DNA of 32,289 nucleotides, taken from a virus. Where the stretch lies: positions 1 through 32,289 of the IMG/VR virus record IMGVR_UViG_3300033153_005184, one strand, 5' to 3'. Below the pieces are notes generated by a model. The model was given only the letters and a program-made list of their open reading frames with translations. It had not been told where the DNA came from and did not search any database. Numbering within the stretch: position 1 is the stretch's first letter; every line of letters starts with the position of its first letter. Positions 1,820 to 15,904 of this stretch are shown piece after piece. The position numbers were made by a program, and so were the translations under genes.

Positions 1820-2040
1820 GCGTTAAGCAGCATTCCGTGGACTATCTCAGAAACAAGGCTAAGGCAGATCAATCAGCAGCTCAGCTATCGCTAGAACTAC
1901 TAATGGACCAGTCTGCTGGTATTGGAGATCATTCTACAGGCGATTTTCATAAGAACTTAGATCAGGCTCTAGACTTGTTACTGGATGCCGAAGACCGTCT
2001 AGAACTCCTTGATAAGTATTACAATAAAGAAGGTGAATAA
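1816..2040 (+). CDS. small hypothetical protein, 74 aa
   Basis: I do not recognise the family. It is a small, acidic, mostly helical soluble protein. The C-terminal half (LDQALDLLLDAEDRLELLDKYY) looks like one amphipathic helix rich in Leu, Asp and Glu, suited to a protein contact. It starts in an ATGA overlap with the primase stop and its own stop overlaps the next ATG (TAATG), so it is translationally coupled within the replication operon. A role as a helicase-primase accessory is only a guess from position. Confidence 0.7.
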   Translation: MSVKQHSVDYLRNKAKADQSAAQLSLELLMDQSAGIGDHSTGDFHKNLDQALDLLLDAEDRLELLDKYYNKEGE

Positions 2041-2876
2041 TGACTCAGATCATCGGCTTTGCCGGAAAAAAACAGAGTGGCAAGAATACCAGTTGCAATT
2101 TCGTCATGATGATGAAGATGCGAGAGCGTGGTATTTCGAAGGCTATCAGGATTAACGAAAACACAGGAGAGCTAGAAGTACAGGAAGTATTTGACCAGAG
2201 CGTCCCTGGCATGGAGTGGTTCCCATTTCGTGAACCATATGTTAATCTTGAGGGTGTCTACCAATCGGTAGGTCCGTTCTGTAAAATCTATGCCTTAGCC
2301 GATTCTCTTAAGGGGATAGCAATCAATGTTCTTGGCCTTCCAGAAGATAAGGTATATGGAACGGATGAGGACAAGCAGACTAAGACTCACTTGCTATGGG
2401 AGAATATGCCAGGGGTAATAACCCCGGAGATAGAGAGGGCCATCTTCAAACGAGCTCAGGGGAATATAGATCCAGCTCTATTAGGCTTGATTGTTCATGC
2501 CGCAGGCCAGATGACGATACGTGACGTACTCCAGCATATGGGCACTGAAATCTTTCGTAAGATGTATGAGACTGTATGGTTTGATACTATGATGCGTAGG
2601 ATTGAAGAAGATAAACCAGAAATTGCCCTGGTCTGTGATGCTCGCTTTGACAATGAACTAATCCTGCTCAAAGAGAGCGGAGCCATAGTGATTGGGCTAC
2701 GCAGAGATATCTTCCAATCCAAAGACACACACAGCAGTGAACAGATCAACTTTGATCTATGTAGTACCGTTCTTGAGAATGGAGAGCTAACCATTGACGA
2801 GCAATGCGAAGCGATCTATGTCACACTTTGCGATTTTAAGTGTAAGAACATTCCTAAAATGATAGTGAGGGCCTAA
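2040..2876 (+). CDS. deoxynucleoside monophosphate kinase
   Basis: This is a P-loop kinase that likely phosphorylates dNMPs to dNDPs to feed phage DNA synthesis, like phage T4 gp1. The Walker A motif GKKQSGKNT sits at residues 9-17, directly after the first strand IIGFAG. The motif VLQHMGTEIFR and the strand IALVCDARFDNE with its acidic pair are typical of phage dNMP kinases. At 278 aa it is a little longer than T4 gp1 (about 240 aa). It lies between primase and nuclease genes with TAATG coupling upstream and no gap downstream. Phage kinases of this type sometimes accept modified nucleotides, but the sequence does not show substrate choice. Confidence 0.83.
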   Translation: MTQIIGFAGKKQSGKNTSCNFVMMMKMRERGISKAIRINENTGELEVQEVFDQSVPGMEWFPFREPYVNLEGVYQSVGPFCKIYALADSLKGIAINVLGLPEDKVYGTDEDKQTKTHLLWENMPGVITPEIERAIFKRAQGNIDPALLGLIVHAAGQMTIRDVLQHMGTEIFRKMYETVWFDTMMRRIEEDKPEIALVCDARFDNELILLKESGAIVIGLRRDIFQSKDTHSSEQINFDLCSTVLENGELTIDEQCEAIYVTLCDFKCKNIPKMIVRA

Positions 2877-4877
2877 ATGGGTATCCCTATAATCTTCTTT
2901 CGTAGCAGTTCGTTTAATTGCCACAGATTCTGTCCGATGCAATTTTATGCCGAGTATACATTAGGCATGAGGGGACCATCAAATAAGAAAGCAGATAAAG
3001 GGACTATCGTTCATAAAATACTGGAGATATGTGCTTTATGCAAAAAGGCTTTGCAAGATGATATCCCCGAGATAGAAGACGAGGAGATCGGGGCAGTACT
3101 CACTGATAACTATGACCCAGAATATATGTCCTCGATTGCTTCTAGGGTATATCACCACTATACCGCTGATCTGACACATCATAGCTGGGGTGAAAAAGAC
3201 TTTAAGGATTGTGTTAACTGGACCTGGAAGGCTCTAAAGTATAACGACGGAATGTTCGATCCACGTTACCGTAACGTGGTTGATGCCGAACCTCACTTCA
3301 ACTTTGAGCTACCCTTCGATTGGGCCGAATATGATTATCCTGAGCAAGGACTCAAGGGAAAACTCGGACTCAAGGGTACAATTGACTTGATCACTGACCT
3401 GGGCGATGGCGTTTACGAAGTGGTCGATTGGAAGGGGTTGCCTACCGATACTCCTATTCCAACAATCGAGGGTTGGAAAACAATGGGAACATTGACAATA
3501 AATGATATTGTCTTCGATAAAGACGGTAATCAAACTAAGGTTGTTGGCAAGTCTAAAAAAAGCTACAAAGAATGTTATGAAATTGAATTTGATGATAAAA
3601 CTAAAGCCATCTGTGATTATGAGCATCTATGGCTGCTAGACAATGATGACGTGGTAGATGCTCCGAATTTAAAGGTTGGTGACAAGATTGACGTGGCAGG
3701 TCCACTCGATACTGACTACGTAGACTTACCTATAGATCCATACGTGCTGGGTGCTTGGCTTGGCGATGGCCGAAACCGTAGTATGGAAATTACGTCTGGT
3801 GATAGCTTTATATTCAATGAAATAGAAGATCGAGGCTATCAGGCAGGAACAGATATTAATCACTCAACGTCAGATTGTCGTACTAGTACTATTTTGGCTC
3901 AAACCCATAATCTAAGAAAACTAAATCTGTTACATAACAAACATATCCCCTTGGTATATCTGAGAGCTTCATACTCTCAAAGACTAGACTTGCTTAGAGG
4001 ACTAATGGATACCGATGGCAATGTGAACAGCGTCAGGAAACAAGCTGTGTTTACGACCTGTAATAAAAAGTTGTCGAATGATGTGAAAGAGCTACTACTG
4101 AGTCTTGGACAAAGGGTTAATCAATCTACGATAGTTAGAGATACAAACTTTAAAAAGAACGTAACAGTTTATCCTCTAGCGTTTCGACCCCTAAACCTTA
4201 ACCCGTTTTTAATGCCTAGAAAATCGGACAGGATTAATGCCGACTGGGGTCCAGGTCGATCAAATAAGCGTATGATTAAGAAAATAACCAAGTTAGCTAC
4301 CAATCTAGAAACTCAATGCATTATGGTAGATAGCCCATCCAATACTTATCTTTGTACTAAAAATATGATCCCTACTCACAATACAGGCAGGCGGCTAGAT
4401 TGGGCGACAGGTAAGACCAAGGATCAGGTAAAGCTATTTTCTGATCCCCAACTCAGACTTTACCACTATGCTGTTAAGCAGATGTATCCTCACGTACACA
4501 GCTTCCTCATTACTATATATTTTATTAACGATGGTGGAGCGTTCACTGTTCATTTTCAAGATTCAGACCTAGAAAAGACAGAAGCAATTATTAAGCGTCG
4601 GTTTGAAGCTATTCGAGATACCCAGCAGCCATTGCGAATCAAAGAGACTGACCCCAAGCAAACATGGAAATGTCACAAGCTATGTCATGCTGGCATGACT
4701 ACGTTTGAGGACACTCATGTTCAGTCTATTGAACGCTATGGTAAGCCAATGAGCAAGTGCGATCAGATGAAACAGGTAATAGCTCAGAAGGGTATCGAGT
4801 GGGTTACTAAAAACTATGCCCACCCTGATCATAAGCATGGGTCATATGGAGAGGGTGGTGGGAAGGTGCAACCGTAA
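2877..4877 (+). CDS. RecB/Cas4-like PD-(D/E)XK nuclease precursor with in-frame intein
   Basis: The 666-aa precursor gives a host protein of about 350 aa after removal of a 316-aa intein. The host part is a RecB-family exonuclease, probably acting in DNA end processing and recombination. Visible motifs are SSFNCHRFCPMQFY (CxxxC, 15 and 19), GTIVHKILE (H46), GLKGTIDLI (D170) and EVVDWK (D184, K186). After splicing the sequence reads DWK-TGRR, the standard catalytic motif III, followed by DPQLRLYHYA, the Q-Y motif. Cysteines in KCHKLCHAG near the C terminus together with C15 could bind an Fe-S cluster as in Cas4/AddB, which is inference. Without splicing the active site would be disrupted. It abuts the dNMP kinase gene upstream and the HNH gene downstream. 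Confidence 0.87.
   Translation: MGIPIIFFRSSSFNCHRFCPMQFYAEYTLGMRGPSNKKADKGTIVHKILEICALCKKALQDDIPEIEDEEIGAVLTDNYDPEYMSSIASRVYHHYTADLTHHSWGEKDFKDCVNWTWKALKYNDGMFDPRYRNVVDAEPHFNFELPFDWAEYDYPEQGLKGKLGLKGTIDLITDLGDGVYEVVDWKGLPTDTPIPTIEGWKTMGTLTINDIVFDKDGNQTKVVGKSKKSYKECYEIEFDDKTKAICDYEHLWLLDNDDVVDAPNLKVGDKIDVAGPLDTDYVDLPIDPYVLGAWLGDGRNRSMEITSGDSFIFNEIEDRGYQAGTDINHSTSDCRTSTILAQTHNLRKLNLLHNKHIPLVYLRASYSQRLDLLRGLMDTDGNVNSVRKQAVFTTCNKKLSNDVKELLLSLGQRVNQSTIVRDTNFKKNVTVYPLAFRPLNLNPFLMPRKSDRINADWGPGRSNKRMIKKITKLATNLETQCIMVDSPSNTYLCTKNMIPTHNTGRRLDWATGKTKDQVKLFSDPQLRLYHYAVKQMYPHVHSFLITIYFINDGGAFTVHFQDSDLEKTEAIIKRRFEAIRDTQQPLRIKETDPKQTWKCHKLCHAGMTTFEDTHVQSIERYGKPMSKCDQMKQVIAQKGIEWVTKNYAHPDHKHGSYGEGGGKVQP
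3435..4382 (+). mobile_element. class 3 intein with LAGLIDADG homing endonuclease
   Basis: This is a 316-residue intein (G187 to N502 of the precursor). The first residue is Gly (GLPTDTPIPT), not Cys, Ser or Thr. Block B is DYEHLW with W252 (intein residue 66). Block F is QCIMVDSP with C481 (295). Block G is MIPTHN with T500 (314), H501 and N502, followed by extein T503. The W, C and T residues at these places are the defining triad of class 3 inteins, which use the block F Cys as first nucleophile. The endonuclease has both dodecapeptides, VLGAWLGDG and LLRGLMDTDG, each with its acidic residue, so cleavage activity is plausible. Boundaries follow from intein block structure and the restored DWKTG motif. 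Confidence 0.93.
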
Positions 4878-4879
4878 AT

Positions 4880-5446
4880 ATGGATAAGCAAAGTGATAGG
4901 TGGTATGCCGAAACAGCAAGACATAATAAGCATTGGAATGATAAAGAAAAGGTTTATTTAAAAAAGAACTACACTAAGCTTAGTATAGATGAGTTAATGG
5001 AAGATATGGGCCGTACCGCTCGCTCAATTCATATGGCAGCTTATAAGTTAGGGATCAGTCGTGAAAAAATCTTGGTGATAGATGGTACTAAGAAATGTTC
5101 AACATGCCTTAAAATTTTACCTATTGGTGAGTTTCATCTATCTTCTAATAATAAAGTTACAGGACTACGTTCTGACTGTAAGGATTGCGTTCGAAATCAG
5201 ACCTATCTTAGAAAATATGGTATAACTCTTAAACAATATGAATCTATGTTAAAAGATCAAAATCACAAATGTTATATTTGTAATAATAAAAGAAATGGAG
5301 AAATTGTATTTAATATCGATCATTGTCATACTACGGGCAAGATTCGTAAGATACTATGTAATGGCTGCAACCGAGCCTTGGGCTTTTTTTTAGATCGTTC
5401 TGACTGGATGCGAAGAGGTGCTAACTATGTGGAGGAATATAGCTAA
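4880..5446 (+). CDS. HNH endonuclease, endonuclease VII-like, probably free-standing homing enzyme
   Basis: This 188-aa nuclease has an N-terminal SANT/HTH-like DNA-binding segment (about 19-60) and then two zinc-binding sets. The first is C73/C76 with C100/C103. The second is C131/C134 with C160/C163. The catalytic HNH core reads NIDHCHTTGKIRKILC with D147, H148, H150 and N164, the pattern of recombination endonuclease VII (T4 gp49 family). A true Holliday junction resolvase is possible. The extra HTH, higher AT content and position between nuclease and polymerase genes favour a mobile homing enzyme. It starts 2 nt after the nuclease stop and its stop overlaps the dnaE ATG (TAATG). Confidence 0.85.
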   Translation: MDKQSDRWYAETARHNKHWNDKEKVYLKKNYTKLSIDELMEDMGRTARSIHMAAYKLGISREKILVIDGTKKCSTCLKILPIGEFHLSSNNKVTGLRSDCKDCVRNQTYLRKYGITLKQYESMLKDQNHKCYICNNKRNGEIVFNIDHCHTTGKIRKILCNGCNRALGFFLDRSDWMRRGANYVEEYS

Positions 5447-7338
5447 TGAAAACATACATACCACTCCACTGCCACTCCGAGTACAGTCTATTAGATGGAC
5501 TATCTAAATGTCAAGCTATAGTAGAGCGTACCCTGGCTATTGGTGCCACGGCTTGTGCTCTAACAGATCACGGTAGCGTGTCTGGTGCTGTAGACTTTGC
5601 TGGCAAGATGAAAGAGAAAGGCTTGAAGCCTATCTTGGGCTCTGAGTTCTATGTATGTCGTGGTCTAGTAACGCAGAAAGATAAAGAAAATCGCCCGCTA
5701 GATCACCAAGTAATACTAGCTAAGAATCATCAAGGCTGGAAAGATTTACTAGGCCTTACTTCCTTCGCGAATAAAAAAGAACACAGCTACTATAAGCCGC
5801 GTCTTGATATTGACGCTATAGCTAAAGCTGGCAGTCAAAAAAACCTTATATCATTCAGCGGTCACTTAGGGTCTATCTTAGCCAATGCTATTACTGATGG
5901 AGATAGACTTGATCCCGACTGGATGAAAAAGGGTATTGCATGTTCAAAGAACTTAGAGAACATATTCGGCAAAGGTAACTTCTTCATTGAGATTCAGCTT
6001 ATTGACTCAAAGATAAATATCTTCGCAGGAGTAGTCGCTAAGGCTTTGAGACAGATCGCGGTCAAAACCGGCATTCCCTGTCTCGCTACACCCGACGCTC
6101 ACTACTGCTCTAGAGACGACGCAGAGGATCAACAGGTGTTGCTCTGCACGAATTTTAAAAAGAGTATAGGGCAAGTACACCGAGAATTAAAACAGGGCAC
6201 GGCAAACAACACCCTGGCTACATTTTTCAAGTCGAACAACTATCACATCCCATCATATGAGGACATGATTGAGTTTCACACCGAAGCAGAGTTAGTGAAC
6301 ACACGAGTTGTTGAGGACATGTGCGAGAACTACAATATCTTACGTTCTCCTGATCCTCCCAAGTTTTCGTGTCCTAAAGGTATGGACCCAAATGAGTACT
6401 TGAGATATCTATGCCGCACAGGATGGGCAAGTAGAATGAGTCATATTGATAGTGACTCTGATAAATTTCCATCCTATGGAGAACGAATTAATCTTGAACT
6501 AGACATATTTACTAGTATAGGTTTATCTAGTTACTTCTTAATTGTAGATGACATACTTAGATTTACACGCAGTCGTGGCTATCTTACTGGCCCTGGACGT
6601 GGATCGAGTGCTGGCTGTATGGTATCCTACTTGTTAGGAATCACTCAGATCGAACCCATCAGATACAACCTTATCTTCGAACGATTCTATAATGCTGGAC
6701 GTAATACGCCCGGCAAGATATCGTGGCCGGATATTGATTTCGATGTTCCTAAAGCTGCAAGGGATGAAATTGTCGAATACGTCCGCAATAAGTACGGAGC
6801 AGATAATGTAGCTCAGATTGTGACATTCCAAACCCTCAAGGGGCGGGCCTCACTTAAGCGAGTTATGAGTGCGAGAGGCAACATATCTTTCGATGAGCAG
6901 AACGCGATCACTAAGAACATTGTGGATGAGAGCAAGATCGCGGACGAGCTGGGCGACATCAAGGCCGAGTATGGTATCTCGTCCGTCATCCTCTGGGCTT
7001 TGGAAAATAACTCTGGCAAGCTTAAAGAGTGGTGTACAATTGGAGAAGGAGGTAAGCTAGAAGGTCGTATGGCTAAAATTTTTGAACAAGCCATTAGGCT
7101 AGAGGGAACTAAGATTATCTCGGGTAAGCACGCTGCGGGCATTGTTATTTCGGCCCAACCGATTAGTGAATCCTGTCCGATGGTCTTAGATAAACAGGGG
7201 CAATATCAACTGGCCGGATTTGAAGGGCCAAGTTGCGAGGATGTTGGGCTACTTAAGCTGGACTGTCTCGGACTTTCTGCACTAGACAAACTTATGGACG
7301 CGGCCAAGATCGCGTCGGGAGAAGATGATGTCGACTAG
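5446..7338 (+). CDS. dnaE: DNA polymerase III alpha subunit, N-terminal half (split DnaE)
   Basis: This is the N-terminal 630 aa of a C-family replicative polymerase. The PHP domain opens with PLHCHSEYSLLDG (H8, H10) and TDHGSVSGAVDFA. The palm has GPGRGSSAG (382-390), PDIDFD with D431 and D433, and LKLDCLGL with D606, so all three catalytic aspartates are in this half. The protein stops about 24 residues after the last aspartate (GEDDVD). The expected next element, the TxGVFQLES block, is encoded 4.8 kb away at 12163-13788. The two halves total about 1170 aa, the normal DnaE length, so almost nothing is missing. The gene is TAATG-coupled to the HNH gene. Confidence 0.93.
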   Translation: MKTYIPLHCHSEYSLLDGLSKCQAIVERTLAIGATACALTDHGSVSGAVDFAGKMKEKGLKPILGSEFYVCRGLVTQKDKENRPLDHQVILAKNHQGWKDLLGLTSFANKKEHSYYKPRLDIDAIAKAGSQKNLISFSGHLGSILANAITDGDRLDPDWMKKGIACSKNLENIFGKGNFFIEIQLIDSKINIFAGVVAKALRQIAVKTGIPCLATPDAHYCSRDDAEDQQVLLCTNFKKSIGQVHRELKQGTANNTLATFFKSNNYHIPSYEDMIEFHTEAELVNTRVVEDMCENYNILRSPDPPKFSCPKGMDPNEYLRYLCRTGWASRMSHIDSDSDKFPSYGERINLELDIFTSIGLSSYFLIVDDILRFTRSRGYLTGPGRGSSAGCMVSYLLGITQIEPIRYNLIFERFYNAGRNTPGKISWPDIDFDVPKAARDEIVEYVRNKYGADNVAQIVTFQTLKGRASLKRVMSARGNISFDEQNAITKNIVDESKIADELGDIKAEYGISSVILWALENNSGKLKEWCTIGEGGKLEGRMAKIFEQAIRLEGTKIISGKHAAGIVISAQPISESCPMVLDKQGQYQLAGFEGPSCEDVGLLKLDCLGLSALDKLMDAAKIASGEDDVD

Positions 7339-7558
7339 TAGACGAACAATGAGTACTTTCAGACAAGACATGATTAACCTATCTAGTAAGTACTCTTTTG
7401 TTAAAAAGGTAATTATTAGCGATGAGAGCTGGGAAGATATGTGTAAATCTTTCGATAAGGACTTAGATCGATCCGAAGGCACTACCCAAAAACATATAGC
7501 AGACCTAAATGGGTCTATGTGTTTTGAAACATTGTATGTGGAAAAGGAAGAGCTGTAG
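7325..7558 (+). CDS. small hypothetical protein, 77 aa
   Basis: I do not recognise this protein. It is charged and has no membrane segment. It overlaps the end of the dnaE N-half by 14 nt. GGGAGAAG directly upstream of the ATG pair at 7325/7328 is a good ribosome site, whereas the later ATG at 7349 has none, so the early start is preferred. It is the first gene in the 4.8-kb stretch separating the two polymerase halves. Sequence similarity to the missing polymerase linker is not apparent. Confidence 0.6.
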   Translation: MMSTSRRTMSTFRQDMINLSSKYSFVKKVIISDESWEDMCKSFDKDLDRSEGTTQKHIADLNGSMCFETLYVEKEEL

Positions 7559-7596
7559 TCTCAATGCGAATAACTAATAATGTCGAGGTGTTTTAA

Positions 7597-8271
7597 ATGA
7601 AAAATAGTAGATGGTTTATCTGTTTCGATTTTGAGACAGACGGCAAAAAAGCAGAAGAATGCAGTCCCGTGGAACTAGCGGCTGTTCCTATCGATCCAGA
7701 GACGCTAGAAATAAGGCGGGCGTGTGCTTTTAGTACAGTCATTCGTCCACCTGGGATAGACAAGGAAGACTATTTCGACGATAAGAAAGTCGAGACGATT
7801 AACTGGCACGCAAAGCAGGCGGGATGTACCTTTGATGATATCGTAGAAAAATGGAAGGGCGGTATGGCTCAGAAAACCGCGTGGAAAAACTTTTGTTCCT
7901 ATTGTTCCAAATACAATGTTGACAAGAGACCAGGACAATGGTATCCTCAGCCCATACCTGTGGGCTACAATATTCTTGGCTACGACATGATCATAGCTGA
8001 ACGACTAGCGGAGAAGCATAAGGCTAAGGTGCCGTTTTCTCAGGTGACACGAGTGGATATCTTTGACATGATCTTCACTTGGTTCGAAAATCTAGATGAA
8101 CCATCTGACTTTAAAATGGATACTTTACGTAAGTTTTTTGGAATTAAGTCCGAGGGAAAAGCACACTCGGCAATAGTAGATGTGTTTGAAGAGGCTGAGA
8201 TCTTTGTTAAGTTCATGAAGTTTCAGCGTAGACAAGCTAGTGTTAAAAAATTCAAAGGAAGTTTCGCATGA
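7597..8271 (+). CDS. DnaQ-like 3'-5' exonuclease (DEDDh)
   Basis: This 224-aa exonuclease probably proofreads for the split DnaE polymerase, the role of epsilon in bacteria. Motif I is ICFDFETDG (D11, E13). Motif II is NILGYDMIIAERL (D130). Motif III is AHSAIVDV (H190, D195), the DEDDh form. An insert of about 60 residues between motifs I and II (TINWHAKQAG and on) is common in phage members. No clamp-binding motif is obvious. It follows the short 77-aa gene after a 38-nt gap with a weak ribosome site (GAGGTG). Confidence 0.88.
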   Translation: MKNSRWFICFDFETDGKKAEECSPVELAAVPIDPETLEIRRACAFSTVIRPPGIDKEDYFDDKKVETINWHAKQAGCTFDDIVEKWKGGMAQKTAWKNFCSYCSKYNVDKRPGQWYPQPIPVGYNILGYDMIIAERLAEKHKAKVPFSQVTRVDIFDMIFTWFENLDEPSDFKMDTLRKFFGIKSEGKAHSAIVDVFEEAEIFVKFMKFQRRQASVKKFKGSFA

Positions 8272-8272
8272 C

Positions 8273-8626
8273 TCAAGGCCAGTTCACAAAGCCCAGTGTC
8301 CACAACCAATGCACCATGGCAGTCCAATAGAGACATGTACCAGCGACTAGAAACGAGAACCACTTCCACTTTTTCCAGTTACATAGATATATGAAGAGCA
8401 TTGTATACATACTGATACGTGAAATCCAGAGGGCATTATAGATACCAATGAATTTAATACAATAGCTCATTGGAAGGAATGTTTCCCTCTGCCAATTATT
8501 ACCAATTATTTCCCGTGTTAGGATCATGTCAATCGTATGAATCACTAGCAACAGAACAACAAAGAACAACGAGATAAGCCATGATGGAGACTTGTACTCT
8601 TTGGGTCGCATACATGTAGAAATCAT
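8273..8626 (-). CDS. small integral membrane protein, minus strand
   Basis: This is a 117-aa hydrophobic protein with three or four membrane segments (about 16-36, 55-83 and 88-110) and basic loops (KKWKW). It is the only gene on this strand between base 1 and the terminator. Read on its own strand, GAGG lies 8 nt before the ATG, supporting real translation. The pattern IHTIDMILTREI followed by a hydrophobic G/Y-rich segment faintly recalls small bacterial membrane proteins such as the DUF5658 type, but I cannot assign it. Its stop lies 2 nt past the exonuclease stop. A superinfection or lysis-related role is possible but unsupported. Confidence 0.62.
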   Translation of the reverse strand: MISTCMRPKEYKSPSWLISLFFVVLLLVIHTIDMILTREIIGNNWQRETFLPMSYCIKFIGIYNALWISRISMYTMLFIYLCNWKKWKWFSFLVAGTCLYWTAMVHWLWTLGFVNWP

Positions 8627-8745
8627 TTTATTGGCCTCGTACGTGGTTAATGATATGCTACAGTATAATACACAATAACGGGGGTTTTCAGAAAAAACTC
8701 AAGTTTATGATAAAATAGCAGAAATTTACCTTTAGGAGCTCTCTG
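8627..8745. promoter_or_regulatory. divergent intergenic region, candidate promoters
   Basis: This 119-nt gap between two divergently oriented genes is the longest non-coding stretch in the window. It is AT-rich and must contain a start signal for the minus-strand gene and possibly one for the plus-strand block. Forward -10-like hexamers are TATAAT at 8664-8669, TATGAT at 8706-8711 and TAAAAT at 8711-8716. None has a convincing TTGACA partner at 16-18 nt. AGGAG at 8734-8738 is the strong ribosome site of the next gene. The promoter call is inference from position. Confidence 0.35.
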
Positions 8746-9207
8746 ATGAACCTTGTTATTGTTTCAGGATACTTCAACCCCTTGCACACAGGACATCTTG
8801 ACTACCTTGAGGGTGCAAGTCGTCTAGGTGATTATCTAATTGTGATAGTTAACAATGACGAGCAAGTCAGGATTAAGGGAAGCATACCCTTCCTGTCCCT
8901 TAAGGATCGTTTAAGAATAGTTCAAGCTCTAACCTGCGTGGGTAGGTCGGTGGCATCTATTGATACCGATGGCTCAGTTGTAAAAACCATAGAAGAGCTC
9001 GCCAAGCTGTGGAAGCAAGCGGGCTCCGATGGGACGGCGACACAAATTTCTGAAGATGGAATAATTTTTGCGAACGGTGGAGACCGAAACTCTAATGACA
9101 TTCCAGAGTATTCCCTATGTGAAAAATATGGTATTCAAATGGCGTTCAATATTGGGGGAGGAAAAACCCAATCATCAAGCGGACTTATTAAGAAGGTTAA
9201 GCAATAG
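8746..9207 (+). CDS. cytidylyltransferase-like nucleotidyltransferase
   Basis: This 153-aa enzyme is of the HxGH nucleotidyltransferase superfamily (TagD, RfaE C-terminal domain and PPAT relatives). It would transfer a nucleotidyl group from CTP or ATP to a phosphorylated substrate. The signature is SGYFNPLHTGHLDYL with H14 and H17, followed by VIVNNDEQVRIKG, and a C-terminal SSSGLIKKV matching the ISSTxI motif. The substrate is not visible. Glycerol-3-phosphate, heptose phosphate or ethanolamine phosphate are family precedents. A strong AGGAG lies 7 nt before the ATG. It may supply an activated sugar or alcohol for the glycosyltransferase genes further downstream. Confidence 0.85.
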   Translation: MNLVIVSGYFNPLHTGHLDYLEGASRLGDYLIVIVNNDEQVRIKGSIPFLSLKDRLRIVQALTCVGRSVASIDTDGSVVKTIEELAKLWKQAGSDGTATQISEDGIIFANGGDRNSNDIPEYSLCEKYGIQMAFNIGGGKTQSSSGLIKKVKQ

Positions 9208-9216
9208 GGGTTGACA

Positions 9217-9336
9217 ATGGAAGACAAGCCTACATTATCGGATATTGTTTTGGGAGTGATTGGAATTATTCTTATAATTGCTCTTGCATGGGATATTGTT
9301 TGTTGGAGTATCTTTCTGGGAGGATGGAATGAGTAA
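9217..9336 (+). CDS. tiny single-pass membrane protein, 39 aa
   Basis: A 39-codon frame runs from the ATG at 9217. Residues about 9-34 are hydrophobic (IVLGVIGIILIIALAW), with an acidic N terminus. GGGG directly before TTGACA serves as ribosome site, the same start arrangement found before several genes downstream. Its stop overlaps the next ATG by 8 nt. No function is recognised. Confidence 0.5.
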   Translation: MEDKPTLSDIVLGVIGIILIIALAWDIVCWSIFLGGWNE

Positions 9337-9565
9337 TCAAAGAGGTCATAACTACTTCACTTTAGTAGAGTCGCTAGAGTTGTATATAGATAATTTATCT
9401 CATTTAAACAAAAATATGAAGATAGACAGAGAAGTCAAACTGCCTTCCCCAGTAGGACGCTTCCCAGTTTATGGTGGCGAGACAGTAAATGATGAAATCA
9501 AGTTGGCTAAGGGTCGTCTTAAAATAACAAGAGAGAGATTGTTTATAAATAAAAAGGAACAATGA
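9329..9565 (+). CDS. small hypothetical protein, 78 aa
   Basis: I do not recognise this protein. It is soluble, basic and predicted helical with LVESLELYIDNLSHL near the N terminus. The frame is open further upstream to an ATG at 9278, but that would overlap most of the 39-aa gene. GGGAGG at 9318-9323 sits 5 nt before the ATG at 9329, so this start is preferred. Confidence 0.55.
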   Translation: MSNQRGHNYFTLVESLELYIDNLSHLNKNMKIDREVKLPSPVGRFPVYGGETVNDEIKLAKGRLKITRERLFINKKEQ

Positions 9566-9566
9566 G

Positions 9567-10112
9567 ATGAAAATTGGGTTAAAGAAAATTCCGAAGGCCG
9601 TCGCCCTATGGGCCATAGTAATCATGGGTGCATTCTTGATCTTTATGACTGCCCTAAGTATTGGTGAAGACAAGGGTCAGCGGATAGAAAGATCGCATCA
9701 GGCACTGGAAATTACCAAGGTGGTTGTTGCCAACACAGAAATCATAGTTGCACATGGGCAGCTTTCTCAGCAGATGAGACAAAATTCAGATATTATAATG
9801 AGGTATCATCACTACTTAGATGGTCATAATCCATCTGTTAAAAAGGTGGTATTATGTCCAGAGTGCCTGACAGAGGAAGACCGCCCAGGCAAGATCGAAG
9901 CATATTTTGTTACCGAATTTGAAGATCACCCAGAGGAATTGCCAGAAACATTTGAACAACTCTTACAGGACTGCGAAGAAATAAAGACTGGTATTCGAGC
10001 CGCCCGGTTCAGTTTGATTCTTCAAGCAGAAACATTACAACGTACATTAGATAAACTTAGAACTCAAACTTCTCCGGTGGTCGAAAATATCTTTGAAAGA
10101 ATTGATAAATGA
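9567..10112 (+). CDS. hypothetical membrane-anchored protein, 181 aa
   Basis: One membrane segment (about 11-32, AVALWAIVIMGAFLIFM) follows a short basic N terminus. The rest is a mainly helical, polar domain with coiled-coil potential. The topology suggests an anchor with a large soluble domain, as seen in phage spanins or membrane-associated replication proteins, but no family is recognised. The last residues, VVENIFERIDK, nearly match the YopX-type C terminus encoded at 11139-11171 (VVGNIFERVDK), and the DNA is 32/34 identical there. This suggests gene-end exchange between cassettes. Confidence 0.62.
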   Translation: MKIGLKKIPKAVALWAIVIMGAFLIFMTALSIGEDKGQRIERSHQALEITKVVVANTEIIVAHGQLSQQMRQNSDIIMRYHHYLDGHNPSVKKVVLCPECLTEEDRPGKIEAYFVTEFEDHPEELPETFEQLLQDCEEIKTGIRAARFSLILQAETLQRTLDKLRTQTSPVVENIFERIDK

Positions 10113-10113
10113 G
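10080..10113 (+). repeat. 34-nt gene-end/gene-start repeat, copy 1
   Basis: This stretch matches 11139-11172 at 32 of 34 positions. It encodes the last residues VENIFERIDK of one gene and the ATGAG start of the next. It probably marks a recombination or duplication junction between small gene cassettes. Confidence 0.85.
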
Positions 10114-10351
10114 CTATCGAATAACAGACGAGCAGGAAACTTTAGAAACTGTCAATTTCCACATGTTGACCGCCATGCAAAATGAATTTGTTTTTAATAT
10201 TGACGAAGAGCCAACAATTTGCAAAAGAATTCAGATTGGTGATTTGATTTGTGAAAACGACGCTTATAGTTGTCATACTACGTCAAGAGTAGATCAAGAT
10301 GGGTTTGTTAAGGTTATTGTTACGACAAAGGGGTGGGGAGTTGACAAATGA
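10109..10351 (+). CDS. small hypothetical protein, 80 aa
   Basis: I do not recognise this protein. It is acidic and soluble with probable beta structure in ICKRIQIGDLICEN, which faintly recalls small phage domains with a gD-type turn. The start lies in an ATGA overlap with the previous gene. It ends GWGVDK, the same last residues as another small gene at 11350, because the next gene's start cassette overlaps its 3' end. Confidence 0.55.
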   Translation: MSYRITDEQETLETVNFHMLTAMQNEFVFNIDEEPTICKRIQIGDLICENDAYSCHTTSRVDQDGFVKVIVTTKGWGVDK

Positions 10352-10363
10352 GTTCTGACGAAC
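10341..10363 (+). repeat. start-codon cassette repeat, copy A
   Basis: This 23-nt block runs from TTGACAA through ATGAGTTCTGACGAAC. It is identical to 11340-11362 and differs by one base from 11161-11183. It is preceded by a G-rich ribosome site and encodes MSSDE. Shorter versions (GGAG or GGGG, TTGAYAA, ATG) precede genes at 10538, 10718 and 11524, and a variant precedes 9217. Confidence 0.85.
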
Positions 10364-10545
10364 ATAATTTAGAAAATCCATTATCAAATGTTGTAGTATC
10401 CCACATTGTGCCGCCGAATTTAGACCTTGCAACCCACCCATACGCAAAATATCTAAATTTTGGTGAGCCGATAGAGTGTATTTTATCTATTTTAGATAAT
10501 GAAGAACAAGAGTTTTGGAAAAATATGGAGTTGACAAATGACTGA
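10348..10545 (+). CDS. small hypothetical protein, 65 aa
   Basis: I recognise no family. The protein is acidic with a Pro-rich middle (HIVPPNLDLATHP) and an acidic helix at the end. It begins MSSDEH, encoded by a 16-nt stretch identical to the starts of the genes at 11168 and 11347. GGGGAG precedes TTGACAA and then the ATG. Confidence 0.5.
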   Translation: MSSDEHNLENPLSNVVVSHIVPPNLDLATHPYAKYLNFGEPIECILSILDNEEQEFWKNMELTND

Positions 10546-10705
10546 CGATAGATTGATAACTCTTTACGATAAAAACAAGAATCCAAAGTTAAAAGTTAGA
10601 TTGACAGAAGAAGGATACGAAAAATATCAGGCAGGAGAAAAGTGGGATAGTGATTGGATTGAAATAATGATGGACATTGAACGTATAAAACTCGCAGAGT
10701 TTTGA
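10538..10705 (+). CDS. very small hypothetical protein, 55 aa
   Basis: A 55-codon frame begins with ATG at 10538 (MTDDRLITLYDKN) and ends LAEF. It is charged, with the segment VRLTEEGYEKYQAGEKW, similar in style to small phage proteins of unknown function. The start has GGAG directly before TTGACAA, the local recurrent start arrangement, and overlaps the end of the previous gene by 8 nt. Support is the ribosome site and the tight packing. Confidence 0.5.
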   Translation: MTDDRLITLYDKNKNPKLKVRLTEEGYEKYQAGEKWDSDWIEIMMDIERIKLAEF

Positions 10706-10717
10706 AGGAGTTGACAA

Positions 10718-11171
10718 ATGAGGGAAATTAAATTTAGGGCGTGGCATAAGAAAAAGCATAAAATGCTTTATAATGTTCAAAAAACCGAAATGGTACATCA
10801 TGCAATGTCTAGTATGGCAGCATCATGCAATGTCTAGTATGGCAGGAGAACCGTCTGGTTTAGACCATTACTTTAATGAAGAGTGGTATGAACTTATGCA
10901 ATACACCGGACTCAAAGACAAGAACGGTAAGGATATTTATGAGGGCGATATTTTAGGCTACCCAACTGATACCAACGATAAGAAACTAACAGAAGTCAGA
11001 TGGGCAAAAGCATACTCTGGAGAGCAGTGGTGTGAATTTGAAATACGAAATTATGCTGGAAAAGATGTGAAGTCAGATGAGTCAGATGAGCCAGACGATT
11101 TTTATGGCGGCATATCTCAAGCCGAATATAAAATAGTCGTCGGAAATATCTTTGAAAGAGTTGATAAATGA
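10718..11171 (+). pseudogene. YopX-family protein gene, frameshifted by a 25-bp tandem duplication
   Basis: The frame from ATG 10718 opens MREIKFRAWHKKKHKML, the standard YopX N terminus, but hits TAG at 10835-10837 after 39 codons. The rest of the family pattern is in another frame: LMQYTGLKDKNGKDIYEGDI, then KIVVGNIFERVDK. The switch occurs in an exact 25-bp tandem repeat (10796-10820 and 10821-10845). Removing one copy gives one continuous protein of 142 aa, the usual YopX length. The gene is thus either broken, switchable by repeat slippage, or affected by an assembly error. ATG 10830 or 10773 could restart translation of the C-terminal part. YopX function is unknown. GGAG before TTGACAA supports the 10718 start. 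Confidence 0.85.
10796..10845. repeat. perfect 25-bp tandem duplication (two copies)
   Basis: Bases 10796-10820 are repeated exactly at 10821-10845. Because 25 is not a multiple of 3 it shifts the YopX reading frame. Each copy holds two ATG triplets and a TAG that is out of frame in one copy only. Confidence 0.95.
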
Positions 11172-11172
11172 G
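11139..11172 (+). repeat. 34-nt gene-end/gene-start repeat, copy 2
   Basis: This is the partner of 10080-10113, encoding VGNIFERVDK at the YopX end and the next ATGAG. Since the GNIFE ending is typical of YopX proteins, this copy is likely the source and the other the acquired one. Confidence 0.85.
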
Positions 11173-11183
11173 TTCTGACGAAC
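11161..11183 (+). repeat. start-codon cassette repeat, copy B
   Basis: This copy has TTGATAA in place of TTGACAA. The following 16 coding nucleotides (MSSDE) are identical to the other copies. Confidence 0.85.
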
Positions 11184-11350
11184 TAAAAGAAAATACTTTT
11201 TATAGTATTAATACCCAATATACAAAAGGGAGATTCCAATACGCCGGGGAAGTAGATTTTCAGGGCGTTAAGAAATATCTTTTTCAATGTTTCGCTATTG
11301 ATATGTATTTAACAGAAGACGAATTAGTCTGTGTGGGGGTTGACAAATGA
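11168..11350 (+). CDS. small hypothetical protein, 60 aa
   Basis: I recognise no family. The sequence alternates hydrophobic and polar residues (GRFQYAGEVDFQGVKKYLFQ), which suggests a small beta-rich fold. It starts MSSDEL from the shared start cassette, overlaps the YopX stop by 4 nt, and ends VGVDK, overlapping the next gene's start cassette. Confidence 0.52.
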   Translation: MSSDELKENTFYSINTQYTKGRFQYAGEVDFQGVKKYLFQCFAIDMYLTEDELVCVGVDK

Positions 11351-11362
11351 GTTCTGACGAAC
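11340..11362 (+). repeat. start-codon cassette repeat, copy C
   Basis: This copy is identical to 10341-10363. It is preceded by GGGGG and starts the 57-aa zinc-ribbon gene. Confidence 0.85.
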
Positions 11363-11520
11363 ATATTATAGAAGATAAAGATTGGTCTTGTATGGACGAA
11401 ATTTATACAGACTTTTATAGATGTCCCAAGTGTGGAGAAGATATGATTATGGTTGCAGCCTTATACTGTCAGGGCTGTGGTGTTAAACTTGAGTGGAATT
11501 TGTCTGGTGATAGGGGTTGA
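11347..11520 (+). CDS. small zinc-ribbon protein, 57 aa
   Basis: The short frame starts at ATG 11347 (MSSDEH) and carries two CxxC pairs, RCPKCG (C26, C29) and CQGCG (C41, C44), a compact zinc ribbon. Such proteins often bind nucleic acid or proteins, but the target is unknown. It overlaps the previous stop by 4 nt and ends 3 nt before the next start. Confidence 0.62.
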   Translation: MSSDEHIIEDKDWSCMDEIYTDFYRCPKCGEDMIMVAALYCQGCGVKLEWNLSGDRG

Positions 11521-11523
11521 TAA

Positions 11524-12033
11524 ATGAGACTAGACCACATAGCATATCGAGTCCCTAACAGGGACGAGACTGTAGAGCATCTCAACAAAATGTTTGGGTA
11601 TCATGTTGAAGAAGAATTTACTATTGACTTTGATAATGGCTCCAAGGCAAAGTGTAAGGCACTTACCGCATTGACTGATATGCACGAATTTATAGAGGGA
11701 ATGCCAGAAGTTTTTGTGTCAGAGGGAAGTCCCGGCTCCATAGTAGAGAAGTGGATTCAAAACACTCCCAACGGTCAGGGTGGCATCCACCACCTAGCCT
11801 ATAAGGTTGACGACATAGATCCTATCGTAAAGCAATGGAAAGATAGGGGCATAGAGTTCCTAACTGAGGATGTTATTGACTGCCCCGATGACGACCTGAG
11901 ACAGATATTTACTAAGCCGCAACCGCTGCTTGGCGGCGTTATTATCGAACTGATTGAGCGTGGAGATAAGGGATTCTGCCAGAACTCTGTTAAAAACTTA
12001 ATGGAAGCTACAGATGAAAATAGAGACAAGTAA
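11524..12033 (+). CDS. VOC-fold (glyoxalase/HPPD-like) protein
   Basis: This 169-aa protein is of the vicinal oxygen chelate superfamily. Two repeated beta-alpha-beta modules begin at LDHIAYRVPN (H5) and GGIHHLAYKVDD (H90), with GGVIIELIERG (E142) as the third metal-ligand site. The end, GFCQNSVKNLMEAT, resembles the C-terminal segment of 4-hydroxyphenylpyruvate dioxygenase, but the protein is only half that length. Substrate and reaction cannot be told; epimerase, lyase, dioxygenase and antibiotic-binding members all share this fold. GGGG then TTGATAA precede the ATG. Confidence 0.75.
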   Translation: MRLDHIAYRVPNRDETVEHLNKMFGYHVEEEFTIDFDNGSKAKCKALTALTDMHEFIEGMPEVFVSEGSPGSIVEKWIQNTPNGQGGIHHLAYKVDDIDPIVKQWKDRGIEFLTEDVIDCPDDDLRQIFTKPQPLLGGVIIELIERGDKGFCQNSVKNLMEATDENRDK

Positions 12034-12163
12034 AAGCCTGTGTACGTTTTTCGCCTTAACCAACTTAGGACTGTTCGCATATAATGGACTAGCATTGAAT
12101 TTATATATTGGAATAGTTATGGTTGTGTGGGTTGTTGTACTAGAGTTTATAGGGAAACATTAA
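12014..12163 (+). CDS. tiny membrane protein, 49 aa
   Basis: A 49-codon frame starts at ATG 12014 inside the end of the VOC gene and ends in TAATG, where the polymerase C-half begins. It has two hydrophobic segments (about 8-26 and 29-46, IGIVMVVWVVVLEFIG). TGGAAG 11 nt upstream is a weak ribosome site. No function is recognised. Exact stop-start coupling to the polymerase gene supports it as real. Confidence 0.5.
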   Translation: MKIETSKSLCTFFALTNLGLFAYNGLALNLYIGIVMVVWVVVLEFIGKH

Positions 12164-13788
12164 TGAAGGAAACAGTAACATTTGATTGCGGCTGTACCTT
12201 TAATGTTAACGAGAAAGGTCTGCCAGTATTCGAACCATATCTAGATAAGATCAGACTGACCTGTCCTGCTACTTGGGACATGATCTGCGAAGGTAACACT
12301 AAGGGCGTCTTTCAGCTAGAGTCACAGCTAGGTCAAAGTATGGCCTCTCAAACTGCTCCTCGACATATGGAAGAGCTGTCAGACCTCATTAGCATCATGC
12401 GACCTGGATGTCTTGAGGCTATAGTAGAGGGAAAGAACCTGTCCACTCACTACATAGACCGCAAAGCTGGACGTGATTCAGTTAGCTACTTTCACCCTGC
12501 CTTGGAGCCAATCCTTGAGAATACATACGGCATCCTGGTATATCAAGAGCAGGCCCTAGGCATTGCTAGGCAAATCGCGGGGTATAATTTACAGGAAGCG
12601 GAGCTACTGAGGAAAGCCATTGGTAAGAAGAAGATTCAACTTATGGCTAAGGTTAAAGCCGAGTTCTTTGACAAGGCTGTGGGCTTCGGAATCATTAATC
12701 TAGAAGAAGCAGAGGAAATATTTAGCTGGATTGAGAAATCTCAACGGTACTCATTTAATAAAAGTCACGCTATAGCCTATGCTCATAACGGCTACCTAAC
12801 AGCTTTTACAAAAGCCCACTTTCCCCTGGCCTTTTTTACCGCTTGGTTGCGACACGCGAAGGGAAAGCAAAACCCGCACATGGAAATTCAAGACCTTGTG
12901 AACAATGCTCGCCTGATGGACATTGATATCGTTCCTCCGAGTATTTTGAACATGAATCGAGTATTTAAATTAATTGATAACAAACCTACGTACGGAATTA
13001 CTGACATAAAAAGAGTAGGCAGTTCAGTTTTCGACCAAATTCGTGGTGTAATAAAGAACAACAAATATGATTTAGAGGGATTTACCTGGGACGTGTTCCT
13101 GATGAAGATGGGGCGAATCATTAAATCTGACTCCTTTAAAGCTATAATATTGGCTGGGGCCTTAGACTGCTATAAAGTTTCTCGCATGAAGATGATATAT
13201 GATCTGGAGTTGTATCGAGAGTTTAGAGATTCTGACCGTAAATACCTAGAGACTGTAAAATGCAGTACATTTAAAGACGGCCTAGAACAAATCTTAACCA
13301 AAAAGATACCTCACGAAAGACGCACAGCTCACACAGACCGCTTTATTGAACTTACCCGTAGCTCCATGAGAGCGTTAGACAACCCGCCTTATCAACTGGT
13401 AGACAGCCCCGCCTGGATAGCTAAGCAGGAGCGAGAGTATCTAGGTATCGCCTTGACATGTACTGAGATTGACGAGCACGATATCGGTGACGCCAACTGT
13501 ACCTGTCGAGATTATGCACAAGGATTTAGTTCTCACTCTATTGCTATAGCTGTTAAGGTAGATGACTTGCGAGAATGGAAAATCAAAAAAGGAAAGAGCA
13601 AAGGAGAAACAATGGCTTTCTTAAAAGTGAGTGATGGAACATGCTCCTTAGATAACGTAACTATGTTCCCAGAAGCTTGGGAGAGGTACTGTCAAGACAT
13701 ACGTATTGGAAGTTTGCTATTGCTGCGAGGACAACGCGATAAGAATCGTGGAAGTTTTCTAGTAATGCGTGTTAAAAAGTTAACGTAA
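12163..13788 (+). CDS. dnaE: DNA polymerase III alpha subunit, C-terminal half (split DnaE)
   Basis: This is the C-terminal 541 aa of the C-family polymerase. It resumes with TKGVFQLES (46-54). The fingers/nucleotide-binding block QEQALGIARQIAGYN, the motif LLRKAIGKKK, RYSFNKSHAIAYA, and a C-terminal OB fold (SIAIAVKVDDLREW to VMRVKKLT) follow. The first 20 residues include an unusual CxC turn (TFDCGCTFNV) not typical of DnaE. I chose ATG 12163 because it overlaps the previous stop (TAATG) and AGGGA lies upstream; an in-frame ATG at 12127 would add 12 residues. All metal-binding aspartates are in the other gene, so activity requires both products. Confidence 0.92.
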   Translation: MKETVTFDCGCTFNVNEKGLPVFEPYLDKIRLTCPATWDMICEGNTKGVFQLESQLGQSMASQTAPRHMEELSDLISIMRPGCLEAIVEGKNLSTHYIDRKAGRDSVSYFHPALEPILENTYGILVYQEQALGIARQIAGYNLQEAELLRKAIGKKKIQLMAKVKAEFFDKAVGFGIINLEEAEEIFSWIEKSQRYSFNKSHAIAYAHNGYLTAFTKAHFPLAFFTAWLRHAKGKQNPHMEIQDLVNNARLMDIDIVPPSILNMNRVFKLIDNKPTYGITDIKRVGSSVFDQIRGVIKNNKYDLEGFTWDVFLMKMGRIIKSDSFKAIILAGALDCYKVSRMKMIYDLELYREFRDSDRKYLETVKCSTFKDGLEQILTKKIPHERRTAHTDRFIELTRSSMRALDNPPYQLVDSPAWIAKQEREYLGIALTCTEIDEHDIGDANCTCRDYAQGFSSHSIAIAVKVDDLREWKIKKGKSKGETMAFLKVSDGTCSLDNVTMFPEAWERYCQDIRIGSLLLLRGQRDKNRGSFLVMRVKKLT

Positions 13789-13809: not shown

Positions 13810-14256
13810 ATGGATAAATTAATTGAGCAACACATGCCCCTTGTGGCATCCATAGTCAATAATTTTGAACCCAAAAACAATACCGAACGAGAGGACTTAC
13901 TAGATGCGGGACGAATTGGGCTCTGGAAAGCATTGCGAAAGTTCGATCCCGCTCATGGCAGTATGGTCTCTACCTATGCGTGGCGACCTATTCAATGGGC
14001 CATTATCCGTGAAATTAAAAACAGACAGCGTAACGTGTCTCTAGATGATGTTGCACCCCCTTCTGTTAGAACCCCCGAAAGGATATGGGAGTACTACCCT
14101 AGCGACATGACTGACCAAGAAAAGCAGTTAATTGAGCTGCGATGCGAAGGGTATAAGTTTCGCGAGATATGCGAGATAGTTAATGAGACACCTTCCACGG
14201 TAAAAAACCGCTTCTATAAGGCGATAAGGAAAATCAAAGAAGGAAACCATGCATAG
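13810..14256 (+). CDS. sigma-70 family RNA polymerase sigma factor (small, two-domain)
   Basis: This 148-aa protein has region 2 (about 8-70; LLDAGRIGLWKALRKFDP, then STYAWRPIQWAIIREIKN) and region 4 (about 100-145; DQEKQLIELRCEGYKF, then the helix-turn-helix TPSTVKNRFYKAIRKIKE). It has no regions 1 or 3, an architecture like ECF and phage sigma factors. It likely redirects host RNA polymerase to phage promoters, perhaps those of the late tail genes. AGGA lies 6 nt before the ATG. Its end overlaps the first glycosyltransferase gene by 8 nt. Confidence 0.87.
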   Translation: MDKLIEQHMPLVASIVNNFEPKNNTEREDLLDAGRIGLWKALRKFDPAHGSMVSTYAWRPIQWAIIREIKNRQRNVSLDDVAPPSVRTPERIWEYYPSDMTDQEKQLIELRCEGYKFREICEIVNETPSTVKNRFYKAIRKIKEGNHA

Positions 14257-15904
14257 AAAGCCTAGAGTATTATTTGTATCCGAATCAGACAAGCTAGCTT
14301 CGGGCTTTGGAGTATACTCTCATGAGGTTCTTAAGCGGCTACATGCTACAGGAAAATATGAGCTCGCGGAATTGGCCTGTTATGGGGCACCCACCTCCTT
14401 TCAGAATACCGACTGGCTAACATATGGTGTGGCACCGATGGCCGGTGAGGACGAATATAATAAGGAGCACACTAATAACCCACAAGTCCAGTGGGGTATA
14501 GTCCGTTTTGAGAGAGTTTGTCTAGACTTCAAGCCAGATATTGTGATAACTTACCGTGACCCTTGGATGGATGCCTATATCGCTGATAGTCCATTCCTTC
14601 CCTTTTTTCATTGGGTTTGGATGCCTACTATTGACTCTGAACCACAAAAGCTAGAATGGTTATATCAACTCTTTAACCGTTGTGATGGTCTTCTAGCTTA
14701 TTCTGAATATGGAATACGAGCATTAGATCGGCAGACTAACGGTCGCCTCAAACCTGTGGGCTGTGCCTCTCCTGCGATTGACCCCAAAGTATTTGTAATG
14801 GCCCCGAACAAAGAGAAGCACAAAGAAGCTTATGGTCTAGACGGAGACAGTTTTATAGTTGGAACTGTTATGAGAAATCAGAAACGTAAGATGTTTCCTG
14901 AACTAATGAGAGCCTTCAAGCAATACCTTGATATGGCTCCTAAAGAACTAGCTGACAAGTCCTTCCTATATTTACACACTAGCTATCCTGAAAAACATGG
15001 ATGGGATATAACGTCTCTAATACACGAGTACAAACTAGGGTCTAAGGCTATATGCACATACAAGTGTAGACACTGCAAGAAGTTCTTTGTTGCTCACTAT
15101 CGCGATGCTATTACAGTTTGTAGATTCTGTAAAAACCACAGTGCTGTATTGCCTGGGGTTTCTAATGGAGTGGAAAGAGATGAATTAGTTCAGATTTTTA
15201 ATCTCATGGATCTCTATGTGCAGTATGCAATTTGCGAGGGTTTCGGCATGCCAGCCGTAGAGGCAGCTGCGTGTGGAGTACCTGTCGCAGCAGTAGATTA
15301 TAGTGCCATGGAAGACGTGGTTAGAGCTGTTAAAGGATATCCTGTTACTCCTGCTCTATCCCGAGAACTAGAAACGAATGCGGATCGTTCGGGACCGAAC
15401 AATGATGATCTGGCTCAAATTATGCTTTCCTGTGCCAAGCAAAGTAAAGAAAAATATAAGAAACATCGCCTCGAAACCCGCAAGGGATGTATTGATCGCT
15501 ATACGTGGGACAATGCTTCTAAGTCATGGGAAAACTATCTAGATAAAGTAGTACAAAAAAGCCTGGAAGGGAAGTGGGACTCTCCGCCGACAATGCGACC
15601 TCTTCCCGATAAGGCCCCAGCTGATCTAAGTCATCATCAATTCGTAGAGTGGGTCTGTACAGCACTATTACAAGATCAGTATTCGGCGTTCAATTATCGA
15701 ATGTTAGTTCTAGCTCGCAATCTTAACTTTGGGGCCAACTTTGGTGCGGGATTTATCTCTCCATGTACGCAAGAATCTGTCTTTAAGGAAATGCTTCCAC
15801 TAGCTCAACGCCGGTTCCTATTTGATGCACTGCGGGTGGGCTCTTTACAGGAAAATCCTCATCAATTCATAGTAGAGGCACATGGGAGATTAAAAAAATC
15901 ATGA
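14249..15904 (+). CDS. GT-B glycosyltransferase with internal zinc ribbon
   Basis: This 551-aa protein is of the GT4-like class. The N-terminal Rossmann start is PRVLFVSESDKLASGFGVYS. The C-terminal donor-binding motif CEGFGMPAVEAAACGVPV has the E-x7-E pair (E330, E338). Between the lobes a small zinc-ribbon insert reads KCRHCKKFF and VCRFCKN (C273/C276, C291/C294). About 100 extra C-terminal residues (HHQFVEWVCTALLQDQYSAF and on) form an additional helical domain. The sugar donor and acceptor are unknown. It overlaps both neighbours by 4-8 nt and heads the glycosylation cluster. Confidence 0.87.
   Translation: MHRKPRVLFVSESDKLASGFGVYSHEVLKRLHATGKYELAELACYGAPTSFQNTDWLTYGVAPMAGEDEYNKEHTNNPQVQWGIVRFERVCLDFKPDIVITYRDPWMDAYIADSPFLPFFHWVWMPTIDSEPQKLEWLYQLFNRCDGLLAYSEYGIRALDRQTNGRLKPVGCASPAIDPKVFVMAPNKEKHKEAYGLDGDSFIVGTVMRNQKRKMFPELMRAFKQYLDMAPKELADKSFLYLHTSYPEKHGWDITSLIHEYKLGSKAICTYKCRHCKKFFVAHYRDAITVCRFCKNHSAVLPGVSNGVERDELVQIFNLMDLYVQYAICEGFGMPAVEAAACGVPVAAVDYSAMEDVVRAVKGYPVTPALSRELETNADRSGPNNDDLAQIMLSCAKQSKEKYKKHRLETRKGCIDRYTWDNASKSWENYLDKVVQKSLEGKWDSPPTMRPLPDKAPADLSHHQFVEWVCTALLQDQYSAFNYRMLVLARNLNFGANFGAGFISPCTQESVFKEMLPLAQRRFLFDALRVGSLQENPHQFIVEAHGRLKKS

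Follow-up and report, generated by a model that had tools for sequence, protein, structure and literature searches.

The two halves of DnaE

The 32,289-base IMG/VR virus record IMGVR_UViG_3300033153_005184 (the whole stretch analysed, hereafter the window) raises the question of whether a replicative DNA polymerase encoded by two separate genes can be a single working enzyme. In an initial annotation, the polymerase DnaE was described as split into two genes 4.8 kb apart, and both were located on the plus strand: an N-half of 630 amino acids (aa) with PHP, palm and thumb at 5446..7338, and a C-half of 541 aa with fingers, HhH and OB domains at 12163..13788, leaving 4824 nucleotides (nt) between the stop of the former and the start of the latter. 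Judging from the sequences, we consider it likely, with a probability of roughly 0.85, that the two genes encode two chains of one C-family (PolIII-alpha/DnaE) replicase that would dock non-covalently and work with a DnaQ-like proofreader.

Both halves were assigned by Pfam, multiple-sequence alignment, PDB profile searches, AlphaFold2 (AF2) models and Foldseek. The N-half matched PHP (E 2.9e-35) and DNA_pol3_alpha (E 6e-65) in Pfam, and the C-half matched DNA_pol3_finger (E 6.1e-43); the HhH and OB matches were weak and just below the cut-off in the window, and these two domains were aligned by the profile search and modelled by AF2. The open reading frame (ORF) of the C-half extends over 12127-13788, and family homology puts its true start at the ATG at 12163. 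Across the two halves all C-family domains were found, i.e., PHP, palm with the three catalytic aspartates, thumb, fingers, HhH and OB, divided between two ORFs in the window and in 168/169 relatives instead of the usual single-chain alpha subunit.

Mapping the halves onto a full-length DnaE structure, as the initial annotation had suggested, placed the break in the linker between palm and fingers. The profile of 21 N-halves covered residues 6-638 of Taq (Thermus aquaticus) DnaE, and the profile of 21 C-halves covered residues 642-948 and matched the OB region weakly at 1000-1110. The gap between the two amounts to only three Taq residues, and hence the halves miss nothing of the DnaE core. 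From established DnaE structures, we take this position to be the palm/fingers junction. Pfam and the alignment agreed that the N-half carries PHP and all three catalytic aspartates: none of D429, D431 and D606 varies among 21 relatives, the PHP metal-binding residues look largely intact, and the chain ends 24 residues past D606. In the AF2 model of the N-half (predicted local distance difference test score, pLDDT, 87.1), D606 lies on a strand formed by residues 603-610 and the chain ends on a helix at 611-623; the C-half model reached a pLDDT of 89.6, and Foldseek searches with each half-model retrieved DnaE structures. The cut differs from the cyanobacterial split-intein site, as had been claimed, since the motif RYSFNKSH is whole within the C-half at residues 195-202.

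An assembly error as the cause of the split was ruled out because two other records carry the same locus, IMGVR_UViG_3300033155_000769 over 10.7 kb at 100% identity and IMGVR_UViG_3300033143_002805 over stretches of 17.4 and 21.6 kb at 99.7-99.8%. Neither is the assignment a chance match, since PDB profile E-values reached 1e-105 and 168 relatives have the same break. The split is thus confirmed as real, precise and conserved.

Conservation of the break and of the exonuclease gene

Scans of IMG/VR returned hundreds of relatives at least, and all counts for the family refer to the matches listed. Among the 169 non-redundant loci with both halves, 168 showed the same break together with a DEDDh exonuclease gene between the halves, and in none of the 169 was the exonuclease fused to either half. 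In the window, this gene (7597..8271, plus strand, 224 aa) encodes a DnaQ/epsilon-like DEDDh 3'-5' proofreading exonuclease, matching RNase_T in Pfam and PHROG 192 ('DNA polymerase exonuclease subunit'). The DxE, Asp and HxxxxD motifs are present, with D11, E13, D130, H190 and D195 invariant in an alignment of 21 sequences, and an FKGxF-like motif is conserved at the C-terminus. In E. coli, the epsilon exonuclease binds the PHP domain of the polymerase, and we infer that the exonuclease would bind the split polymerase as an epsilon-like proofreading subunit.

The exonuclease gene usually abuts or overlaps the start of the C-half. The overlap between its stop and the C-half start was 4 or 8 nt in 51 of the 84 loci measured, which suggests translational coupling of exonuclease and C-half. 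Across the family loci, the distance from the N-half stop to the C-half start had a median of 866-869 nt (range 664-4821), and the 4.8 kb separation is peculiar to the window virus. The initial annotation had counted the exonuclease and a dozen accessory genes between the halves; the number stands, with ~13 ORFs including the exonuclease, but the exonuclease is the conserved core of the arrangement and not one gene among many. The remaining 3.9 kb (8272..12162, with no strand assigned to the block as a whole) were characterized from the ORF list and Pfam as cargo, comprising cytidylyltransferase-like and glyoxalase/VOC genes together with membrane and small proteins without assignment. This cargo is a later local insertion at the exonuclease/C-half junction of a conserved cassette.

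In other relatives, the exonuclease/C-half junction holds no genes or different ones, for example a ThyX gene in L020 and genes for DUF1559/N-methyl pilin-like proteins in L140 (3584-4561) and L300 (9265-10242). DUF1559 pilin-like proteins are expanded in Planctomycetota, and their genes in L140 and L300 are a possible host clue toward this phylum for that subgroup. On the other side of the exonuclease, many members of a distant subgroup have an ORF of ~60 aa between N-half and exonuclease. A conserved gene of ~60 aa with an 'SCC..NA' motif, often overlapping the exonuclease start, was observed in L134, L141, L146, L153, L156, L179 and others.

The initial annotation had the C-half resume at the block TKGVFQLES. 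That block occupies residues 46-54, and homology to DnaE begins ~20 residues earlier, at DKIRLTCPATWDMI. It is preceded by a new N-terminal stretch of ~22 residues (12163..12240, plus strand), in which AF2 placed strands at residues 4-6 and 12-15, giving a predicted beta-hairpin. C9 and C11 of its CGC motif, and C34 just beyond it, are invariant in 21 sequences, and these cysteines may form a metal site. The stretch was not found in the linkers of the fused DnaEs examined, and it was lost in a few family members, e.g., L188, L376 and L410.

Relationships of the family

In the N-half tree, the family formed one clade (support 100/100), set off from the DnaEs of bacteria and of other phages by a stem of 1.63 changes per column. 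N-half identities within the clade fall to 41%, and its contigs reach 230 kb. In a search of genome contigs, the only matches were ordinary bacterial DnaEs with identities no higher than about 35%, and cultured phages gave nothing above about 35%; the family is virus-only, and a bacterial origin or host match was rejected on the basis of the same genome matches. Terminase-like matches in 13/14 long contigs, of which the shorter ones may be other ATPases, suggest that these are tailed phages. PF07068 (T4-type capsid) had no match anywhere, controls included. The split would date to the root of this large uncultured tailed-phage clade, or before, with the exonuclease/C-half junction of the window virus later taking in 3.9 kb of unrelated genes.

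A search for fused relatives, another suggestion of the initial annotation, returned exactly one among the listed relatives. In L428, palm and fingers lie in one ORF without the CGC leader and with the exonuclease downstream, and this single ORF supports the two halves being one enzyme. L428 nests inside the split clade in the concatenated tree, suggesting a re-fusion; its alternative role as a surviving pre-split ancestor is disfavoured by this nesting, although a split clade without L428 was not rejected by the approximately unbiased (AU) test (p 0.067).

Rossellomorea phage phiT1, whose DnaE is also in two parts, is placed away from the family in the N tree as well as the C tree and therefore broke independently; that a remote lineage is split at this same linker indicates that the site tolerates a break. 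No phiT1 relatives were found in IMG/VR. Fused DnaEs from 'Bacteriophage sp.' faecal records were rejected as the closest phage relatives, as several fell within bacterial DnaE on the tree. Those of L103, L109 and L112-L115 (GenBank MT835xxx/MT836xxx) sit inside bacterial clades, and these records are probably bacterial and not phage.

A probable single enzyme in two chains

All three genes are under strong purifying selection, with a median ratio of nonsynonymous to synonymous substitution rates (dN/dS) of 0.038 for the N-half, 0.046 for the exonuclease and 0.035 for the C-half, and pairwise protein identities are correlated between the three (r 0.86-0.95). We detected one palm domain in each of 35 contigs of 36-230 kb (in two pieces in L185), one palm domain, also in two pieces, in the 28 kb contig of L428, and one fingers domain in each of 20 long contigs. 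A full-length dnaE elsewhere in the genome, which according to the initial annotation would speak against the split, was looked for in the same 35 contigs and in that of L428, with no second PolIII-alpha found; PolA and PolB were absent from 20 long contigs. The split enzyme is the only DNA polymerase found, and it is kept by selection.

We propose that the N and C chains would be made separately, each folding on its own, and would associate non-covalently to complete an active site of palm, thumb and fingers, while the exonuclease encoded between the halves would serve as an epsilon-like proofreading subunit. The sequences establish what the halves are, that together they are complete, the conserved gene order and the selection on the genes; docking, joint activity and exonuclease binding are the parts of this proposal that we infer. 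There is precedent in a split phage polymerase, gp43A/gp43B, which co-purifies and is active without covalent joining, and in a split NrdA that works (PMC2988022). Several points weigh against the proposal. Shared descent would by itself also produce gene linkage and correlated divergence, and no bacterial-type beta clamp gene was found in the 20 contigs searched for PolA and PolB. In addition, the contigs are metagenomic, with CheckV completeness not given, and a further genome segment is conceivable. A stricter arrangement, which we think unlikely, would make N-half, exonuclease and C-half an obligate heterotrimer, in which the proofreader, translated between the halves and coupled to them, would bind palm and fingers, help to hold them together and be required for polymerase activity.

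If a split intein or RNA splicing joined the two halves, the working enzyme would be a single chain. Split inteins unite cyanobacterial dnaE and some phage polymerases (PMC6892783), and inteins occur in the window (2877-4874) and in the C-half of the relative L366. At the break itself, however, Pfam detected no intein domain, while the genuine intein of L366 was detected and served as a positive control. Beyond the profile end, N-half tails add 0-20 aa, and C-half leaders run for 32-46 aa up to the TW block. Neither leaves room for a split-intein half, and a conserved C-terminal HN is missing; the earlier claim that no intein halves flank the break holds. Rfam found no intron in the window or in the interrupted relatives L185, L428, L366 and L139, although it can miss divergent group I introns, and the gap, which measures about 0.66 to 4.8 kb, is occupied by a conserved and complete exonuclease ORF that overlaps the C-half start in many relatives. 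We regard joining as extremely improbable, and place the same small weight on gene decay, in which the halves would be remnants in a phage that uses the host polymerase. Phages can depend on host replicases, and the cargo does put the halves 4.8 kb apart in the window. Against decay, N-half, exonuclease and C-half each evolve at a dN/dS of about 0.04, the catalytic residues do not vary, a clade as diverse as this one has retained a single site of breakage, and the PolIII-alpha gene is the sole one, without PolA or PolB.

It is quite improbable, though less so, that the halves are separate proteins with different roles (e.g., a PHP nuclease and nucleotidyl transferase for the N-half, and a DNA-binding factor for the C-half) that rarely or never form one polymerase. 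The largely intact PHP metal-binding residues, the prediction by AF2 that each half folds alone, and the C-half's own N-terminal CGC hairpin would fit such roles. Against them, a palm without fingers cannot bind template and incoming deoxynucleotide in the normal way, as established DnaE structures indicate, both halves are present wherever the flanks of the relatives allow, and a single ORF encodes palm and fingers together in L428. The origin of the break is a separate matter, compatible with two docked chains: a homing endonuclease may have broken the gene, with the exonuclease gene replacing the nuclease later, as opposed to direct insertion of the exonuclease. An HNH gene lies upstream of the N-half in the window, a 227-aa HNH-like ORF without a Pfam match lies between N-half and exonuclease in L139 (2130-2813), inserts at the PDID motif hold a LAGLIDADG ORF in L428 (Pfam) and a similar-looking one in L185, and Aeh1 NrdA and phage 25/44RR gene 43 set a precedent (PMC2988022). 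Since no such nuclease is conserved at the break, where the gene found in 168 relatives is the exonuclease, we consider this route possible but lean against it.

Neighbouring genes and further inserts

Directly upstream of the N-half, an Endonuclease VII-type HNH nuclease gene (4880..5446, plus strand; PF02945, E 3.7e-21) is present only in the window's own near-identical contigs and is possibly a free-standing homing endonuclease. The end of the N-half is overlapped by a 77-aa ORF (7325..7558, plus strand) that is conserved in the window's subgroup, with tblastn matches at the equivalent place in about ten relatives and no match in Pfam or PHROG.

Further inserts were observed within and near the polymerase genes. 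An insert of ~0.8-1 kb interrupts the N-half once more in L185 and L428, and also in L189 and L190, either at the catalytic PDID motif or immediately ahead of it; the C-half of L366 (5968-8361) has its intein in the fingers domain, at the RPGC site; and the HNH-like ORF of L139 may be a homing endonuclease located at the break. In the window, a PD-(D/E)XK nuclease ORF at 2877-4877 has an internal LAGLIDADG intein-like insert running from about 'GLPTDTPIP...' to '...NMIPTHN|TG', the first position of which is apparently Gly and not Cys or Ser. Within the cargo, near-identical junctions GTTGA(C/T)AAATGAGTTCTGACGAAC recur at three small-gene borders (~10341, ~11163 and ~11340), and those at 10341 and 11340 were the top matches of a promoter-like scan (TTGACA); the junctions are possibly repeated promoter/start cassettes. 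Downstream of a run of glycosyltransferase-like genes (14249-23510), a 1972-aa ORF on the minus strand (23836-29754) had no Pfam or PHROG match.

Comparison with known split polymerases

Replicative polymerases are usually regarded as indivisible catalytic chains, and here a large, diverse and uncultured phage clade keeps its only detected polymerase in two. This natural two-part polymerase makes palm-fingers communication and alpha-epsilon co-assembly of the C-family directly testable by subunit mixing, and for annotation it is a caution: a DnaE ORF of half length in a viral contig is not necessarily a frameshift and can be a genuine gene. The literature covered here describes no clade in which a full-length DnaE is consistently cut at palm/fingers around the proofreader gene, although two key surveys lay outside this coverage and prior mention is possible.

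Group 2.2 jumbo phages likewise encode a phage-specific C-family catalytic subunit in two proteins, and these parts of a minimal PolIII alpha have been proposed to come together as a single enzyme (Iyer et al. 2021, PMC7824862). That version lacks PHP and other PolIII domains, its genes are widely separated and a family B polymerase occurs alongside it, whereas the halves described here are full-length, with PHP, thumb, HhH and OB, their genes lie on either side of an exonuclease gene, and no PolB was found in 20 long contigs. The gp43A/gp43B polymerase of the T4-like Aeromonas phages 25 and 44RR is also a replicative phage polymerase in two chains without an intein; however, it belongs to family B, has been reported from a few phages, and between its two genes lies a seg endonuclease or an untranslated insert and not a proofreader (PMC2988022). 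In homing-derived genes in pieces, such as NrdA of Aeh1 and gp43 of phage 25, a homing endonuclease lies between the pieces, whereas here only the exonuclease is conserved, with the HNH-like ORF of L139 in addition. Cyanobacterial DnaE is encoded by two separated genes as well, but it is cut within the fingers at RYxFNKSH and restored by protein splicing, in contrast to a cut before the fingers with no intein; a split intein is also known in the PolB of phage MIJ3 (PMC6892783).

Among phage DnaEs, gp20/gp18 of phiT1 (PV767480) is cut at the same palm/fingers linker, with 573 aa in the first part, followed by a 49-aa ORF and the C-half; it differs in having no exonuclease between the halves and no CGC hairpin, and in its distance in both trees. 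The DnaEs of Gordonia phage Djokovic (L106), Microbacterium phage Tedro (L107) and Bacillus phage vB_BpsS-140 (L100) are also in two ORFs with no intein detected, but they are cut between PHP and palm, so that palm and fingers stay in one chain; these splits indicate that domain borders have been recurrent sites of breakage in phage DnaE. The bacterial DnaE and DnaQ (epsilon) core and PolC bring the same polymerase, PHP and DEDDh exonuclease together. Bacteria, however, use a single alpha chain with dnaQ as a separate gene, or place the exonuclease within PHP (PolC), whereas in the viral family described here the exonuclease gene parts the palm from the fingers.

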